From assembly GCF_000512895.1 (NCBI RefSeq), contig NZ_CP007033.1, positions 836,001 to 900,000 of the forward strand: 64,000 nt of DNA, read 5' to 3'. The translations under genes and the position numbers were made by a program. Each line of letters starts with the position of its first letter. The first letter of the stretch is position 1. Under the pieces are notes generated by a model. That model saw only the letters and a program-made list of their open reading frames with translations, was not told the origin of the DNA and searched no databases. The DNA is from Dehalobacter restrictus DSM 9455 (lineage in GTDB: Bacteria; Bacillota; Desulfitobacteriia; Desulfitobacteriales; Syntrophobotulaceae). Shown here one piece after another: positions 29,269 to 34,391 of this stretch.

Positions 29269-29895
29269 TTAGAAAATATCTTTGATGACTTTGAACACAA
29301 CGCCAACAATTTCGACATGATCAGGTTCCAACGCCCGGTAGCTAGGGTTGGCCGGTTCAAGCGTAATTCTATTATCAACATTGTAAAACCTTTTGCAGGT
29401 CACTTCTTCCCCGTTGATCCTGGCTATTACTGTCTGCCCGTTTTGGGCCGTTTGCTGTTTTCTTACCAGCACAAGGTCGCCGTTACTGATATCTAGATCA
29501 ATCATTGAATCACCTTTAATCTTCAAGGCAAAGACCAATTCATCTTCGCGGACAAACGAACGGGGAACCGGCAAATAATCTTCAATATCTTCGAAAGGAA
29601 TGGCCGGGGTTCCGGCGGGGACTCGGCCGACGATTGGAACCATAGCAAGATCAGGAATGGTATGCCCGTTATTAAAATTCGGCAGTTCGTTCATCGCAGG
29701 GTTTTTGCCCAGCAGACTATCCAGAGAGATCCCGAAGAAATCAGAGACTTTCTGCAGAAATTTATAATCCGGTTCTCTTAAACCAAGTTCATACAAAGAC
29801 AAAGCTGAACGCGATACCTCCAGGTGTAAGGCCAACTGGTTCTGCGTAATTTTCTTCGTCCGGCGCAAATATTTTAAAGTTTCACCAAAACTCAC
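29269..29895 (-). CDS. XRE-S24 self-cleaving repressor (phage CI/LexA-like)
   Basis: The N-terminal Cro/CI-type helix-turn-helix (about residues 5-60, TQNQLALHLEVSRSALSLYE) is joined to a LexA-type S24 peptidase domain. The cleavage site is A94-G95 in GRVPAGTP, with catalytic S130 in KGDSMID and K168 in TCKRF. Such proteins repress phage genes until RecA-stimulated autocleavage after DNA damage. The 208-aa protein is divergent from the lysis-module genes, with two matching 17-bp operators between them. Its HTH is XRE-type, unlike the winged helix of host LexA, so it is not the cellular SOS regulator. Confidence 0.9.
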   Translation of the reverse strand: MSFGETLKYLRRTKKITQNQLALHLEVSRSALSLYELGLREPDYKFLQKVSDFFGISLDSLLGKNPAMNELPNFNNGHTIPDLAMVPIVGRVPAGTPAIPFEDIEDYLPVPRSFVREDELVFALKIKGDSMIDLDISNGDLVLVRKQQTAQNGQTVIARINGEEVTCKRFYNVDNRITLEPANPSYRALEPDHVEIVGVVFKVIKDIF

Positions 29896-29921
29896 ATCAT
29901 CACCTCTAAGAAAATATTCTA

Positions 29922-29938
29922 CTCTACAATGAGTAGCA
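29922..29938 (-). promoter_or_regulatory. repressor operator 2
   Basis: Read on the minus strand this is TGCTACTCATTGTAGAG, matching operator 1 at 14 of 17 positions. It is 27 nt from the repressor start and is suited to autoregulation. Confidence 0.65.
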
Positions 29939-29988: not shown

Positions 29989-30017
29989 TTGACTGCTACG
30001 CAATGTAGCAATATAAT
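29989..30017 (+). promoter_or_regulatory. repressible promoter of the lysis module with embedded operator 1
   Basis: TTGACT at 29989-29994 and TATAAT at 30012-30017 are separated by 17 nt. The palindrome TGCTACGCAATGTAGCA (29994-30010) fills the spacer, so a bound repressor would exclude RNA polymerase. Confidence 0.75.
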
Positions 30018-30081: not shown

Positions 30082-30621
30082 TTGCAAAAATCACAGATGA
30101 CAGACACGGAGAACATGCTGAAAAATTACTATCGAAGATTGAATGAACTGTGGGTAAAAAAGGCGATTATTGAAAACCTTAGAAAAAATGCTAATGAGAT
30201 CAGGAATATTTTGCTGGATGTCAACGAACTGGTACCTTCCAGAGGGATTGTTACACAATATATGGCTGTTTCAGGCGGTTGTGTGTACGTTTGCGACAGG
30301 TCTGCGCAAAACTATTATGAATTTACTTCATCCGTAGAAAAATTTGAGAAGAGATTAGCCGCGTTACTACACCGCGGTGTCAAACTGAAGAGTCAGATCA
30401 TCTATCTTGAATCAGCCATTGAAGGGATCACTTATGCCTTAAGTCTACTTGATCCTGTTGACCGAACAATATGTGAGAAGTGTTACGGCCTTAAGGAGCA
30501 CAGCAATATTCAAATTGCCAAAGAACTTCGGATGGACGAAAAAACGATTCGGTACAGAAGGAAAAAAATTAATCAGAAACTCAATCTTTACCTGCAGGAT
30601 TGTATGTGTGTGAATCAATAA
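30082..30621 (+). CDS. sigma-like/ArpU-type phage transcriptional regulator, copy 1
   Basis: This 179-aa helical protein has a C-terminal sigma-region-4-like helix-turn-helix (LDPVDRTICEKCYGLKEHSNIQIAKELRMDEKTIRYRRKKINQKL). The middle region is coiled-coil-like with a Gly/Cys-containing turn. Similar architectures are found in phage late-gene activators (ArpU/RinA type). The open frame extends upstream to 29989, but the promoter lies there, so the likely start is TTG 30082 with AAGGGGTG seven nt before it. It is paralogous along its whole length to the product of 30854-31399. Confidence 0.7.
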   Translation: MQKSQMTDTENMLKNYYRRLNELWVKKAIIENLRKNANEIRNILLDVNELVPSRGIVTQYMAVSGGCVYVCDRSAQNYYEFTSSVEKFEKRLAALLHRGVKLKSQIIYLESAIEGITYALSLLDPVDRTICEKCYGLKEHSNIQIAKELRMDEKTIRYRRKKINQKLNLYLQDCMCVNQ

Positions 30622-30737
30622 CTAGTACCTGTCAGCCCTGAACCTTATATACCCTGGCGGCAGATTTCTCGTAATACCGCGTTGTCGTCATTATATAATC
30701 ATTTTAGGGTTGACAAGGTGCTAGACATGCAAAGAGA

Positions 30738-30802
30738 TTTCCGAATTTTTTCCTGGCTTTTGCCGAATTAATCCTTGAAAATAACGTATGCTTGTTACAG
30801 TG
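30738..30802 (+). promoter_or_regulatory. twin element A (65 bp)
   Basis: Four blocks are shared with element B at identical spacing: TTTCCGAATTTTTTCC (30738), TTTGCCGA (30759-30766), GTATGCT (30786) and TACAGTG (30796). It ends 51 nt before the second regulator gene. It is a candidate binding site or promoter for the sigma-like regulators. Confidence 0.65.
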
Positions 30803-30853
30803 GAAGTATTCTCCATAAAGAACATACAGGAACAACCGGAGAGGAGAGTGAAC

Positions 30854-31399
30854 ATGAACGACACCGCTATGAAAGGTATGGAAGCCGCCTTGCGAAGCTA
30901 TTACCGGAAATTAGATGAACTGCAGGTCAAGAAAAGAGCTTTGGAAGCGGTGGAAAAGAATGCCGAAGATATCAGAAGAATATTATTGGATGTAAATCAG
31001 CTTATTCCTTCGAAAGGAACAGTTTCGAGTTATCGCCCCGTCACGGGAGGAGGAAACGGCTTAGTCTGTGATCCAACTGCGCAAGCTTATGCGGAATTTA
31101 CACGCTCCATGGAAAAATCGCAAAGGGAGCTTGTGATTTTGCTTGAAAAAAAGATTAGGCTAAAAATGGAGATCATGCATCTGGAATCTTCCATTGAGGG
31201 AATTGGTTTTGCGCTGAACTTGCTGGATCCTGTGGAACGGATGATTTGTGAACAGTATTATGGTTTAAAAAGGAAAAGTAATTTACAAATCGGACTGGCG
31301 TTGAATATGGACGAAAAGACCATAAGATATCGCCGAAAAAATATTAACCAGAAACTCAACGATTATTTGAAGGTAAAACACCTCGTTAAATCCGGCTAA
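30854..31399 (+). CDS. sigma-like/ArpU-type phage transcriptional regulator, copy 2
   Basis: This 181-aa paralogue of the preceding regulator shares motifs such as LDVNQLIPSKG, LESSIEGI, LLDPVERMICEQYYGL and MDEKTIRYRRKNINQKLN. The sigma-region-4-like HTH occupies the last 60 residues. ATG 30854 has GGAGAGGAG upstream. An in-frame upstream ATG at 30788 falls inside element A. Tandem duplication followed by divergence suggests a two-step regulatory relay controlling the lysis genes. Confidence 0.7.
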   Translation: MNDTAMKGMEAALRSYYRKLDELQVKKRALEAVEKNAEDIRRILLDVNQLIPSKGTVSSYRPVTGGGNGLVCDPTAQAYAEFTRSMEKSQRELVILLEKKIRLKMEIMHLESSIEGIGFALNLLDPVERMICEQYYGLKRKSNLQIGLALNMDEKTIRYRRKNINQKLNDYLKVKHLVKSG

Positions 31400-31515
31400 T
31401 AGCACAAGAATGAGACAAGCCACATATTATGCATAAGACCTGAGACTTTATGAATATTTATCTAATAAAGGACAGGTCTTATTTTCTTTGGGCTATCGGA
31501 AAGGTGGGAAAGCGG

Positions 31516-32223
31516 ATGATGTCTTTAAAGTCAGCAAGAGTATCTTACCCCTATGGTGTCAGAAACAGTGTATATGGTAAAGGTTATCACGAGGGAATTG
31601 ATTTGGTTTCAGAAAATAGAGCCATATATGCTGCTGTTGCGGGCGCTGTCATTAAGGCAGCCTATGCCGGCGGTCAGGGTGCAGATCCGGAAGGGTGGGG
31701 AAATTACGTTATCCTGAGAACCAGGAATGGCAATTACGATCTGATCCATGCCCATCTTGCCTCCGTGAAGGTGACCCGCGGACAGACAGTCAATGAAGGT
31801 GCCATTCTCGGTATGATGGGCAGAACAGGGAACACCACCGGCCCTCATCTTCATTTTGAGGTCAGAAGGGCGCCCTGGACAAACAATAACGAAATTAATC
31901 CAGCTGTGTTTCTGGGGATAGAGAACAAAGAAGGACCCGTAAAAAGTGTTTCTGCGAATTCAAGTGAGGAGGGGAAAAAGGTGGTTCAAAACATTATTTT
32001 ATGCAATCCAGGCCCGGATGAAAGAGCAGCAGCTTATCTAGCAGATCATTTAAAGGCACCGGTATGTTACCTCGCAAATGTGACGAAAGAATTCATTGAC
32101 TGTGCAGAAAAAGTCTATGTGATCGGCAACGATTATCAGGCAGCAGAAAAATCAATCAATATCATCGGTGCGGACCGTTATGATACCTGCCAAAAAGTGC
32201 TTGATCTCTGTAAAGCCAAGTAA
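31516..32223 (+). CDS. M23 metallopeptidase endolysin with CWB2-like C-terminus
   Basis: This LytM-type peptidoglycan endopeptidase has Zn ligands H25 and D29 in YHEGIDLV, HAHL and the HLHFEV motif. The C-terminal 75 residues resemble half of a cell-wall-binding repeat 2 domain (IIGADRYDTCQKVLDL). No signal peptide or membrane segment is visible, as expected of a phage-type endolysin that needs a holin. The chosen start is ATG 31516 with AAAGGTGGG upstream. An in-frame ATG at 31450 is less well placed. The next gene encodes a holin-like protein 10 nt downstream. Confidence 0.8.
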   Translation: MMSLKSARVSYPYGVRNSVYGKGYHEGIDLVSENRAIYAAVAGAVIKAAYAGGQGADPEGWGNYVILRTRNGNYDLIHAHLASVKVTRGQTVNEGAILGMMGRTGNTTGPHLHFEVRRAPWTNNNEINPAVFLGIENKEGPVKSVSANSSEEGKKVVQNIILCNPGPDERAAAYLADHLKAPVCYLANVTKEFIDCAEKVYVIGNDYQAAEKSINIIGADRYDTCQKVLDLCKAK

Positions 32224-32233
32224 GGAGGAAGTT

Positions 32234-32665
32234 ATGGATACTATTACGCTGCCCCAGTCTTTTTTTACTCTGCAGGATCTTTCATCACTCGGTGGTACAG
32301 TAATCGCTGTCTACGTCATTGTATCTTTTCTGAAAGATTACCTGAAAATATTAGGAAAGAGAATTTCCAAAGACGGGTCAGGGGACTGGATCGTGCGTCC
32401 GTCCTCTGTCCTGATTTCCTTCCTGATCATCATTTGGACACTGGTCATTCGGGAAGAGGTTAGTGCCGAAAACATTGGTCTGGCCATCATTAATGCTTTT
32501 CTTGTCGCGTTGATCGCCGGAGCGGCCCATGACTATATTGTGGCTCCAACGAAGGAGAAAGCTGTTTTGCAGGCCATGGATAAAGAGAATCTGAAAAATA
32601 ATCTTGAAAATCAAGGATCATCTGAGGCAAAAAACATATCTAATTCAAATAACATATCTGGATAA
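32234..32665 (+). CDS. holin-like small membrane protein
   Basis: The 143-aa protein has three hydrophobic helices (about residues 15-37, 55-72 and 80-102) and a hydrophilic, Asn/Lys-rich C-terminal tail. Size, topology and position directly after an endolysin without a signal peptide fit a phage holin. AAGGAGGAAG precedes ATG 32234. Overlapping upstream frames are discarded. Confidence 0.7.
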   Translation: MDTITLPQSFFTLQDLSSLGGTVIAVYVIVSFLKDYLKILGKRISKDGSGDWIVRPSSVLISFLIIIWTLVIREEVSAENIGLAIINAFLVALIAGAAHDYIVAPTKEKAVLQAMDKENLKNNLENQGSSEAKNISNSNNISG

Positions 32666-32686
32666 AAGGTTTCTAACGGATAAAGT

Positions 32687-32751
32687 TTTCCGAATTTTTT
32701 CCGGTTATTTGCCGATTTTGAAGCAAAATTTCGGGTATGCTGAGTACAGTG
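32687..32751 (+). promoter_or_regulatory. twin element B (65 bp)
   Basis: It shares with element A, at the same offsets, TTTCCGAATTTTTTCC (32687), TTTGCCGA (32708-32715), GTATGCT (32735) and TACAGTG (32745). It lies between the holin-like gene and the XhlA-like gene. Confidence 0.65.
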
Positions 32752-32760
32752 AGAATCACA

Positions 32761-32811
32761 CCAAACATAGTTTGGCAACTTAATTGGAACGTCCTTGTAA
32801 GGGCGTTTTTA
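32761..32811 (+). terminator. hairpin pair ending in a T-run downstream of element B
   Basis: CCAAAC/GTTTGG (32761-32775) forms a small hairpin. CGTCCTT/AAGGGCG (32790-32805, one G-T pair) followed by TTTTT forms an intrinsic terminator. Its place between element B and the next genes suggests an antitermination point or the end of a short RNA. Confidence 0.6.
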
Positions 32812-32831
32812 TTTTAAGTATCTAAAACGGA

Positions 32832-33014
32832 GTGCCGGAGACGGCGGGTATGATGCAATCCAGAAGGCAGGGAGGGGCCGGGGGAACTCCGCCGTATTAT
32901 TCCTTGCGGACGGATACTTATTATCACGAAGACGGCGTGACCGCCAAGGCAATCAAGACCTATCTCCTGACTTACGACCAGGATAATGCTTTGGTCAGCG
33001 AGGTGTTGCAATAA
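32832..33014 (+). CDS. doubtful small ORF, 60 aa
   Basis: A frame from GTG 32832 (or ATG 32850) encodes about 55-60 aa ending DQDNALVSEVLQ. Ribosome sites are poor and no family is recognised. It fills the space between element B and the XhlA-like gene and could be a short phage-type protein or noncoding. Confidence 0.3.
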   Translation: MPETAGMMQSRRQGGAGGTPPYYSLRTDTYYHEDGVTAKAIKTYLLTYDQDNALVSEVLQ

Positions 33015-33036: not shown

Positions 33037-33402
33037 ATGACGGTTGAAAATGAAAAGAGTAAGAAAGGACTTGAAGAAAGATTGAAAGAGCATGAAGAGA
33101 CGCTTAAAAAGCATGATGAACGGCTGACGATCCTGGAATCTTCCTCGGTGCTGGAATCCAAGCGGCTGGATAGTTTGTGCGAGCAGTTGATGGAGTTTAG
33201 CTTTGATATCAAAGAGATGCTTAGCAGTCACGACGAAAGGATCAAAGAGCAGGAGATGGAGTGTGTCAAAAAAGAAAAAGATATTGAAAGTCTCGCCGGT
33301 TCGGTGAAAGCAGTCCTGTCCATTCTTCGATGGACTGCTACGACAGTATTCCTCCTGCTTGCAGGCTTTTTTATCTGGTACATTCAAATACGGCCCGCTT
33401 AG
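33037..33402 (+). CDS. XhlA-like coiled-coil membrane protein
   Basis: This 121-aa protein has a long charged N-terminal coiled coil (KSKKGLEERLKEHEETLKK...), one C-terminal transmembrane helix (about residues 98-117) and a short tail. This is the arrangement of XhlA/hemolysin-type lysis accessory proteins of Bacillus prophages such as PBSX. GGGAGGAAAGG precedes ATG 33037. It closes the lysis module before a strong terminator. Confidence 0.65.
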   Translation: MTVENEKSKKGLEERLKEHEETLKKHDERLTILESSSVLESKRLDSLCEQLMEFSFDIKEMLSSHDERIKEQEMECVKKEKDIESLAGSVKAVLSILRWTATTVFLLLAGFFIWYIQIRPA

Positions 33403-33569: not shown

Positions 33570-34391
33570 ATGGTCTTACTTAAGGGACAAGATGCACTTG
33601 AGGCACTCTGCGGCATATTGCCTTACGTTGTGAAGGCTCTTCCTCCTGACATGGCCTTATACGTGACGGATGGGAAAAAGTATCTTCAGGTAGCCGAGGG
33701 AGAAGAGCTTAATATTGGTATTGAAGTCGGCAGTGAGATTATGGGAACAGCTACCGAAAAATGTATGAAAGAGAACAGGAAGACCGTGTTTAATGTCCGG
33801 ACCGGGACACTGTTTCGCGGAGTAAATATACCGATACCTGATGAAAACGGAAGTCCTGTCGGGACGGTGGTATGTGCGACCGGAAGGAAGAAACAACAGG
33901 ATGTTAATGAGGTAGCTGTACAGCTGTCCAATTATCTGGATCAGATTGCCTCAGCGGTTGAGGAGGTCGCCATGGGTGCCGGGAGACTGGCCGAAGTCGG
34001 TCAAGCCCTCTCCGTGAAAGCGCAGGAATCTAATCAGAAAATTGATGAAACTGAAGTCATTATCAACACCATTACAAACATCTCGAATCAGACGAATATG
34101 CTTGGCTTAAATGCCGCGATTGAATCGGCCCGGGCCGGGGAACACGGCCGCGGGTTCGGCGTAGTTGCCCAGGAAATCAGGAAGTTAGCCGAAAACAGTA
34201 AAAAAGCAGCAGAAGAAGTCCGGCAGATTATTGAGTCGATTTCTTCGGCGGTTACCGACATGACCAATGCAGCTGAAGAATCGGGACAGATCGCCCAGCA
34301 GCAGGCTGCGGCCACTCAGGAGAATGCAGCCACGATCGATCACCTGCGGAAACTGGCGGAGACGGTTAAAGATACGGCTGCCAAACTGTAA
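33570..34391 (+). CDS. short soluble methyl-accepting chemotaxis-like protein
   Basis: This 273-aa protein has no transmembrane segment. The first 120 residues form a small sensor domain ([21 protein letters not shown]...). A shortened receptor signalling domain follows, with the hairpin tip [40 protein letters not shown] 33570 follows GGGGGG. It may sense a cytoplasmic cue and feed the CheA system. The ligand is unknown. Confidence 0.88.

Follow-up and report, generated by a model that had tools for sequence, protein, structure and literature searches.

The window, meaning the whole 64,000-nucleotide stretch of DNA analysed here, contains a compact control and lysis locus (Table 1). A repressor gene is divergent from the genes for two small regulators, which are followed by an endolysin-like peptidase gene, a gene in the holin position, and an XhlA-like gene. 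The spacer of the regulator 1 promoter holds a dyad (GCTACnnnnnGTAGC at 29995-30009, = GCTACGCAATGTAGC) that is maintained through paired changes in the distant congener G003 (GCTTC..GAAGC) and is also found in G013, a member of another genus. Two noncoding elements, A upstream of regulator 2 and B downstream of the holin-like gene, are the subject of this analysis.

Table 1. Features of the locus and of related loci. Positions refer to the window unless a genome or locus is named.
Feature	Position	Strand	Basis or remark
HTH + S24 repressor (LexA/CI-like, self-cleaving type)	29269..29895	-	Pfam HTH_3, Peptidase_S24; PHROG repressor
Operator-like dyad CTACTC..GAGTAG	29919..29936		divergent intergenic region
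Sigma-A promoter of regulator 1, TTGACT-17-TATAAT, 11/12	29989..30017	+	sequence
Regulator 1, 179 aa, probable TTG start; coiled coil + sigma-region-4-like HTH	30082..30621	+	weak PHROG/NCBIfam sigma matches
Element A, three 11-bp iterons TTTCCGAATTT / TTTCCTGGCTT / TTGCCGAATTA	30738..30770	+	sequence
Element A, -10-like TATGCT, predicted start near 30799	30787..30792	+	sequence
Regulator 2, 181 aa, RinA/phrog_36-like; C-terminal sigma region 4 fold	30854..31399	+	profile matches, model
M23 peptidase, endolysin-like	31501..32223	+	Pfam PF01551 E=1.5e-22
Small membrane protein, holin position	32234..32665	+	no family match; intact, pN/pS about 0.1
Element B, three 11-bp iterons TTTCCGAATTT / TTTCCGGTTAT / TTGCCGATTTT	32687..32719	+	sequence
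Element B, -10-like TATGCT, predicted start near 32748	32736..32741	+	sequence
Intrinsic-terminator-like hairpin + T run	32786..32817	+	about 40-60 nt after predicted B start
Conserved RNA leader, 5' part, truncated by tail-module deletion	32828..32887	+	comparison with relatives
Remnant, last ~40 codons of last tail-module gene	32884..33014	+	matches G004 gene end '...SGGTPPYYSVRTDTYYHEDGVTAKAIKTYLLTYDQDN..SEVLQ'
XhlA-like lysis protein	33037..33402	+	Pfam XhlA E=5.5e-7, below gathering score; PHROG hemolysin E=2.5e-12
RNA leader copies	L014 5120-5183; L047 7997-8062, 4337-4396, 1899-1961; L091 1501-1561		upstream of tailocin tail, fibre, lysis genes
Site 3	genome 1554692 (1554692-1554746)	+	iteron pattern match; -10 = TATAAT
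1,230-aa protein gene	L068 9907-13599, genome about 1554906-1558598		under site 3 iteron promoter
Site 4	genome 1983446 (1983446-1983500)	-	iteron pattern match
Orphan phage-type/fibre-like operon	L067 8349-10336, genome about 1981348-1983335		under site 4

Elements A (30738-30802) and B (32687-32751) both carry four blocks at offsets 0, 21, 48, and 58, which confirms the shared internal spacing reported in the initial annotation. Ungapped alignment of A with B gives 44/65 identities, and the next-best 65-mer on either strand of the window gives 34/65. Scanning the whole 2,943,336-bp genome with blocks 2-4 at ≤3 mismatches returned no copies beyond A and B, and the reversed control pattern for these blocks had zero matches in the complete genome. 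The same scan found exactly one A and one B in each of four other members of the genus. Between the window genome and G003, the elements are identical at 56/65 and 52/65 positions while the 60-bp flanks match at 15-24/60, and this persistence of the elements between diverging flanks indicates that they are under selection. A ~100-bp MITE-like insertion with terminal inverted repeats (CTAGTACCTGTCAGCCCTGAA ... TTAGGGTTGACAAGGTGCTAG) lies just 5' of A at window positions 30622-30725; it is present in G001 and G002 and absent from G003 and G004, and one of its ends occurs again at genome 160856-160880.

Written in 11-base lines, A reads TTTCCGAATTT TTTCCTGGCTT TTGCCGAATTA ATCCTTGAAAA TAACGTATGCT TGTTACAGTG and B reads TTTCCGAATTT TTTCCGGTTAT TTGCCGATTTT GAAGCAAAATT TCGGGTATGCT GAGTACAGTG. 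The true repeat is 11 bp, with CC at offsets 3, 14, and 25 marking three phased iterons. The functional unit consists of three 11-bp-phased iterons (TTKCCGANNTT), 21 bp, and a -10-like TATNNT at offset 49. This hexamer corresponds to block 3; both elements have TATGCT here, and other members have TATTAT, TATGAT, TATACT, or TATAAT, a range that fits a sigma-A -10. The two TA-rich hexamers at offsets 49 and 58 are both -10 candidates, and offset 49 is the predicted choice. Block 4 (TACAGTG), located about where transcription is expected to begin, shows no conservation beyond the genus. The initial annotation stated that neither element matches a sigma-A promoter. That statement holds for the -35, which is absent from A and B, and it fails at block 3, which aligns with TATAAT, TATACT, and TATTAT elsewhere. 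By this alignment A and B resemble sigma-A -10 promoters that require an activator, and the 65-bp element is better described as a putative activator-type promoter. A sigma-54 promoter and a riboswitch of known class were considered and rejected.

The two regulators are 55% identical to each other. The predicted structure is a long coiled coil followed by a C-terminal domain similar in fold to known sigma region 4 structures (target TM 0.69-0.83; the E values exceed 0.1, owing to the small size of the domain), and sigma region 2 is absent from the model. All family scores fall under the curated cut-offs. Regulator 2 scores 22.8 bits against the RinA family model TIGR01636 (cutoff 31.9) and regulator 1 has no match to it, so the regulators are described as working like the RinA/Ltr type and are not classed as members. 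The ECF/TcdR-like sigma factor scores of 29.6 and 25.4 bits are likewise below their 42.9 cutoff. The phrog_36 profile is unspecific, matching ordinary sigma factors and 12/14 control genomes. Because the family matches are weak and phrog_36 is unspecific, family placement depends mostly on synteny and fold. A tblastn search with regulator 2 against the phage collection had no match, the first protein scan of the genome contigs found none, and a profile search against PDB sequences returned coiled-coil noise only.

The four-block pattern finds A and B only and therefore understates the regulon, so it was replaced by an iteron pattern (TTKCCGANNTTTTKCCKNNNTNTTGCCG-N21-TATNNT, ≤3 mismatches) applied with a control to the whole genome. 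Four places match (0, 0, 0, and 1 mismatch), namely A, B, site 3, and site 4, and the control has no matches genome-wide. The suggested genomic check for additional sites upstream of phage-type genes was thus positive, and a count of four argues against the dispersed repeat named as a refutation. Sites 3 and 4 are unlinked phage-type loci. Site 3 precedes the gene for a 1,230-aa protein with SH3 repeats and M14 carboxypeptidase, Ig-like (Big_2), and M23 domains. Site 4 precedes the gene for a 187-aa phage-type protein that matches PHROGs without assigned function, followed by the gene for a 473-aa protein that has no family match and is read by us as fibre-like. The site 3 promoter is also found in G001; within the genus, site 4 occurs in this genome alone.

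Site presence tracks regulator presence, in agreement with the earlier nomination of the neighbouring sigma-region-4-like regulators as candidates. In a set of 61 genomes covering the window genome, its genus, family, and order, exactly six carry iteron sites, namely G000-G004 and G013, and the same six and no others encode a close homologue of the regulators (E<1e-50). Because the elements are near the regulator genes, co-inheritance would by itself account for much of this co-occurrence; the unlinked sites 3 and 4 are the main argument against mere co-inheritance. Since the genome has no regulators of this close kind other than these two, control of sites 3 and 4 would have to act in trans, an indication that regulator action extends to unlinked loci of the host. 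In G013 a lone regulator accompanies both A and B, so one protein can apparently serve both sites, which supports the proposal of one factor for the two elements. The presence of two regulators looks like the result of a later duplication.

The claim that both elements control the lysis module is borne out for A, which lies 5' of regulator 2 and then the M23 and holin-like genes. It does not apply to B, which lies 3' of these genes and precedes a tail operon in G002, G003, G004, and G013. There, B is followed by genes for sheath, XkdN-like, LysM/XkdP-like, baseplate wedge, and fibre proteins and then by XhlA. The G004 operon has PHROG matches to sheath (E=4e-136), XkdN-like, and baseplate proteins, and no capsid or terminase was seen in the relatives' tail cluster. 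The cluster, as represented by the G004 operon, thus combines a contractile tail, a baseplate, and lysis genes in the headless arrangement of a PBSX-type tailocin. The window genome lacks the structural tail genes and by itself does not qualify as one. Its leader breaks at ~32887 and continues as the end of the final tail gene, which runs to 33014 and is followed by XhlA. The deletion in G001 extends from the first tail gene to XhlA, and the two different deletions show that tail loss happened twice, independently. The genes for the repressor, both regulators, the M23 peptidase, the holin-like protein, and XhlA are intact in both genomes, with pN/pS mostly 0.05-0.6 and one value above 1 that depends on a single synonymous difference. 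Two independent losses with lysis and control genes intact raise the question of what benefit or effect an inducible lysis cassette on its own has for the host.

These observations of sites, phasing, conservation, synteny, co-occurrence, and deletion come from sequence comparison. They make it very probable that A and B serve a domesticated contractile tailocin of the PBSX/diffocin-like kind as sigma-A promoters that depend on an activator, and that the adjacent RinA/Ltr-like regulators bind them. We infer regulator binding, activation, and an SOS trigger in the following scheme. DNA damage would inactivate the S24 repressor by cleavage, and regulator 1 would then be made from its operator-bearing sigma-A promoter. 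Regulators 1 and 2 would bind the three iterons, spaced one helical turn (11 bp) apart, and recruit sigma-A RNA polymerase. Activation of A would produce regulator 2, the M23 peptidase, and the holin-like protein, for amplification by positive feedback and for lysis, and activation of B would express the tail operon in relatives. The regulators would also switch on the two unlinked genomic loci. In the window genome, deletion of the tail operon has left the regulators, the lysis genes, and both promoters.

Known late regulators provide precedents for this scheme. Ltr of phage phi13 depends on 18-bp repeats that precede a sigma-A TATA box, and Alt of TP901-1 recognises a set of four direct repeats located at -76 to -32 (PMC13123087). 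The present system resembles RinA, Ltr, and Alt in having a small phage regulator near its putative target, predicted late-gene control, and predicted SOS-induced prophage control (PMC13123087), and A and B likewise have direct repeats 5' of a -10 without a good -35. It differs in using three 11-bp iterons where phi13 has 18-bp repeats and Alt has four, in a duplicated regulator with a sigma4 fold, an extra, putatively autoregulatory promoter, and two unlinked sites, and in a promoter-proximal terminator and RNA leader. PBSX of Bacillus subtilis and diffocins share with the relatives the XkdN-like, sheath, LysM, and baseplate genes without a capsid, and a repressor and sigma-like regulator alongside XhlA/M23 lysis genes. 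The differences from them, in a comparison at the level of gene content, are the S24-type repressor, the paired regulators, and the loss of the whole structural operon in the window genome.

A wider search combined R1, a sequence-only model, with a generic iteron pattern. The same architecture was found in unrelated Firmicute prophages (G119, G124, G087/L093, L092, L095, L094, and L096). The iteron letters vary by lineage (TTTCCGA, TGCCGAG, TCCCGAG, TGACGAG) with 11-bp phasing kept, and the iteron and -10 offsets are constant in the divergent loci L047, G119, G124, and G087. The iteron-to--10 distance is kept in nearly all; L092 and L095 have a fourth iteron-like copy that makes placement ambiguous. 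At loci with readable neighbours, the sites are near a small regulator of this shape and lie 5' of late genes such as those for terminase. Applied to 257 Gb of cellular genomes, the generic pattern gave six matches, one in a prophage and five apparently chance or unrelated repeats, so the pattern is informative near phage genes only. Weak R1 matches in G386, G222, G268, G182, and G180 had no convincing phased iterons and were dropped. Three 11-bp iterons, 21 bp, and TATNNT provide an exact, searchable promoter code for a Gram-positive phage late-regulator group, tied here to a tailocin in a probably organohalide-respiring genus.

Most structural-gene promoters of this group are followed by an intrinsic terminator. 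Of 12 promoters that precede genes for structural, fibre, or packaging proteins, 9 have a strict hairpin and T-run terminator within the next 85 nt, where dinucleotide shuffles give about 0.1, and these terminators begin between +1 and +40 relative to offset 61; counting the near-identical L092 and L095 once makes this 8/11. Weaker terminators were seen by eye in G087 (larger loop) and G013B (short T run), and the G124 promoter has none. None of the five regulator-gene and unlinked promoters is followed by a terminator, and the 85 bp upstream of each element are free of terminators. That several lineages place the terminator after the late promoter and not before it suggests that read-through is an additional step, a form of control so far not known for such systems.

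In the tailocins, a 60-65-nt leader lies 3' of the terminator and forms a predicted hairpin (GCCG-GNRA-CGGC) followed by a stem closing on GGC-AGGGWGGG-GCC. The GNRA loop is GAGA, GTGA, GCAA, or GAAA. Across 11 distinct copies, 94% of cells pair and three pairs changed on both sides. The covariation score was reached by no shuffle and favours an RNA structure, with a bias toward the model because the alignment was fitted to it. A search of Rfam 15 with three loci carrying an intact leader gave no family match up to E=2. The leader, carried by only a handful of independent lineages, thus appears to be a previously undescribed structured RNA without an Rfam family. The unit of iterons, terminator, and leader occurs three times in one contig, L047, before two fibre sets and the tail operon, and the distant genome G244 has one leader copy before an amidase gene. 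The two tandem fibre-gene sets (L047 2333-7658) each have a promoter-terminator-RNA unit of their own, an arrangement that may serve to diversify the fibres.

Intrinsic terminators are common between operons. The hairpin after B may accordingly end lysis-operon transcripts or act as a 5'-stabilising stem, with the leader an ordinary 5'-UTR and no antitermination, and we give this explanation a little less than an even chance. It accommodates the hairpins that start at +1 to +9. It explains less well why the terminator is always 3' and never 5' of the promoter in unrelated phages, a wasteful position for an operon end, and why the leader keeps its GNRA loops and paired changes.

As an extension of the favoured scheme, the same features allow a role like that of lambda Q, in which an iteron-loaded regulator both starts transcription and makes polymerase ignore the terminator after the late promoter. 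The sigma4-like domain might remain on the beta-flap, close to the RNA exit channel, with a possible contribution from the RNA leader. The terminator excess and its restriction to the downstream side of structural-gene promoters, the repeated units in L047, and the covariation all point in this direction. Against it, some hairpins start ≤5 nt from the predicted start, a position that may make for poor termination; the terminator could just end an upstream operon or protect a 5' end; and G124 lacks one. We know of no antitermination activity of RinA/Ltr proteins. Such a role is possible and somewhat unlikely. That the paired sigma4-like regulators are activators and antiterminators with the leader, through its GNRA and AGGGWGGG-loop hairpins, adjusting read-through is a speculative proposal that we hold to be unlikely. 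The likeness to lambda Q and pR'-tR' is one of layout only (a late promoter, a terminator close behind, a candidate regulator site at the promoter) without a demonstrated sequence relation, and the present leader is much shorter, with structured RNA 3' of the terminator. If correct, the proposal would describe a Firmicute system, in tailocins and prophages, that parallels lambda Q control. The recurring promoter-terminator order, with the RNA leader in tailocins, makes an antiterminator role of Gram-positive late activators testable.

Two further explanations concern A and B themselves. The sigma4 fold and the weak sigma70-ECF matches would suit true sigma factors of the TcdR/ECF type acting on A and B as their -35/-10 promoters; this is improbable, as the regulator model is a coiled coil with a single sigma domain, the -10 varies as a sigma-A -10 does and is TATAAT at site 3, and three iterons are unlike a single -35. 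It is extremely improbable that A and B, which are similar and separated by 1.95 kb, represent a duplication of recent origin or a repeat element without a regulatory role, whether MITE-like or a phage att site, because all five congeners and another genus carry the pair, there are no other copies, and the blocks alone are kept, with spacers not common to A and B; a dispersed repeat or att site was rejected.

Two minor features adjoin the lysis genes. Between regulator 2 and the M23 gene (window 31420-31490), a stem (ATAAGACCTG..CAGGTCTTAT) with a ~30-nt loop and a T-rich tail is possibly a second attenuator and was not seen in G003. Directly 3' of the tailocin locus, positions 33570-34391 encode a soluble MCP-signalling-domain protein whose gene is also beside XhlA in G001, G002, and G004.
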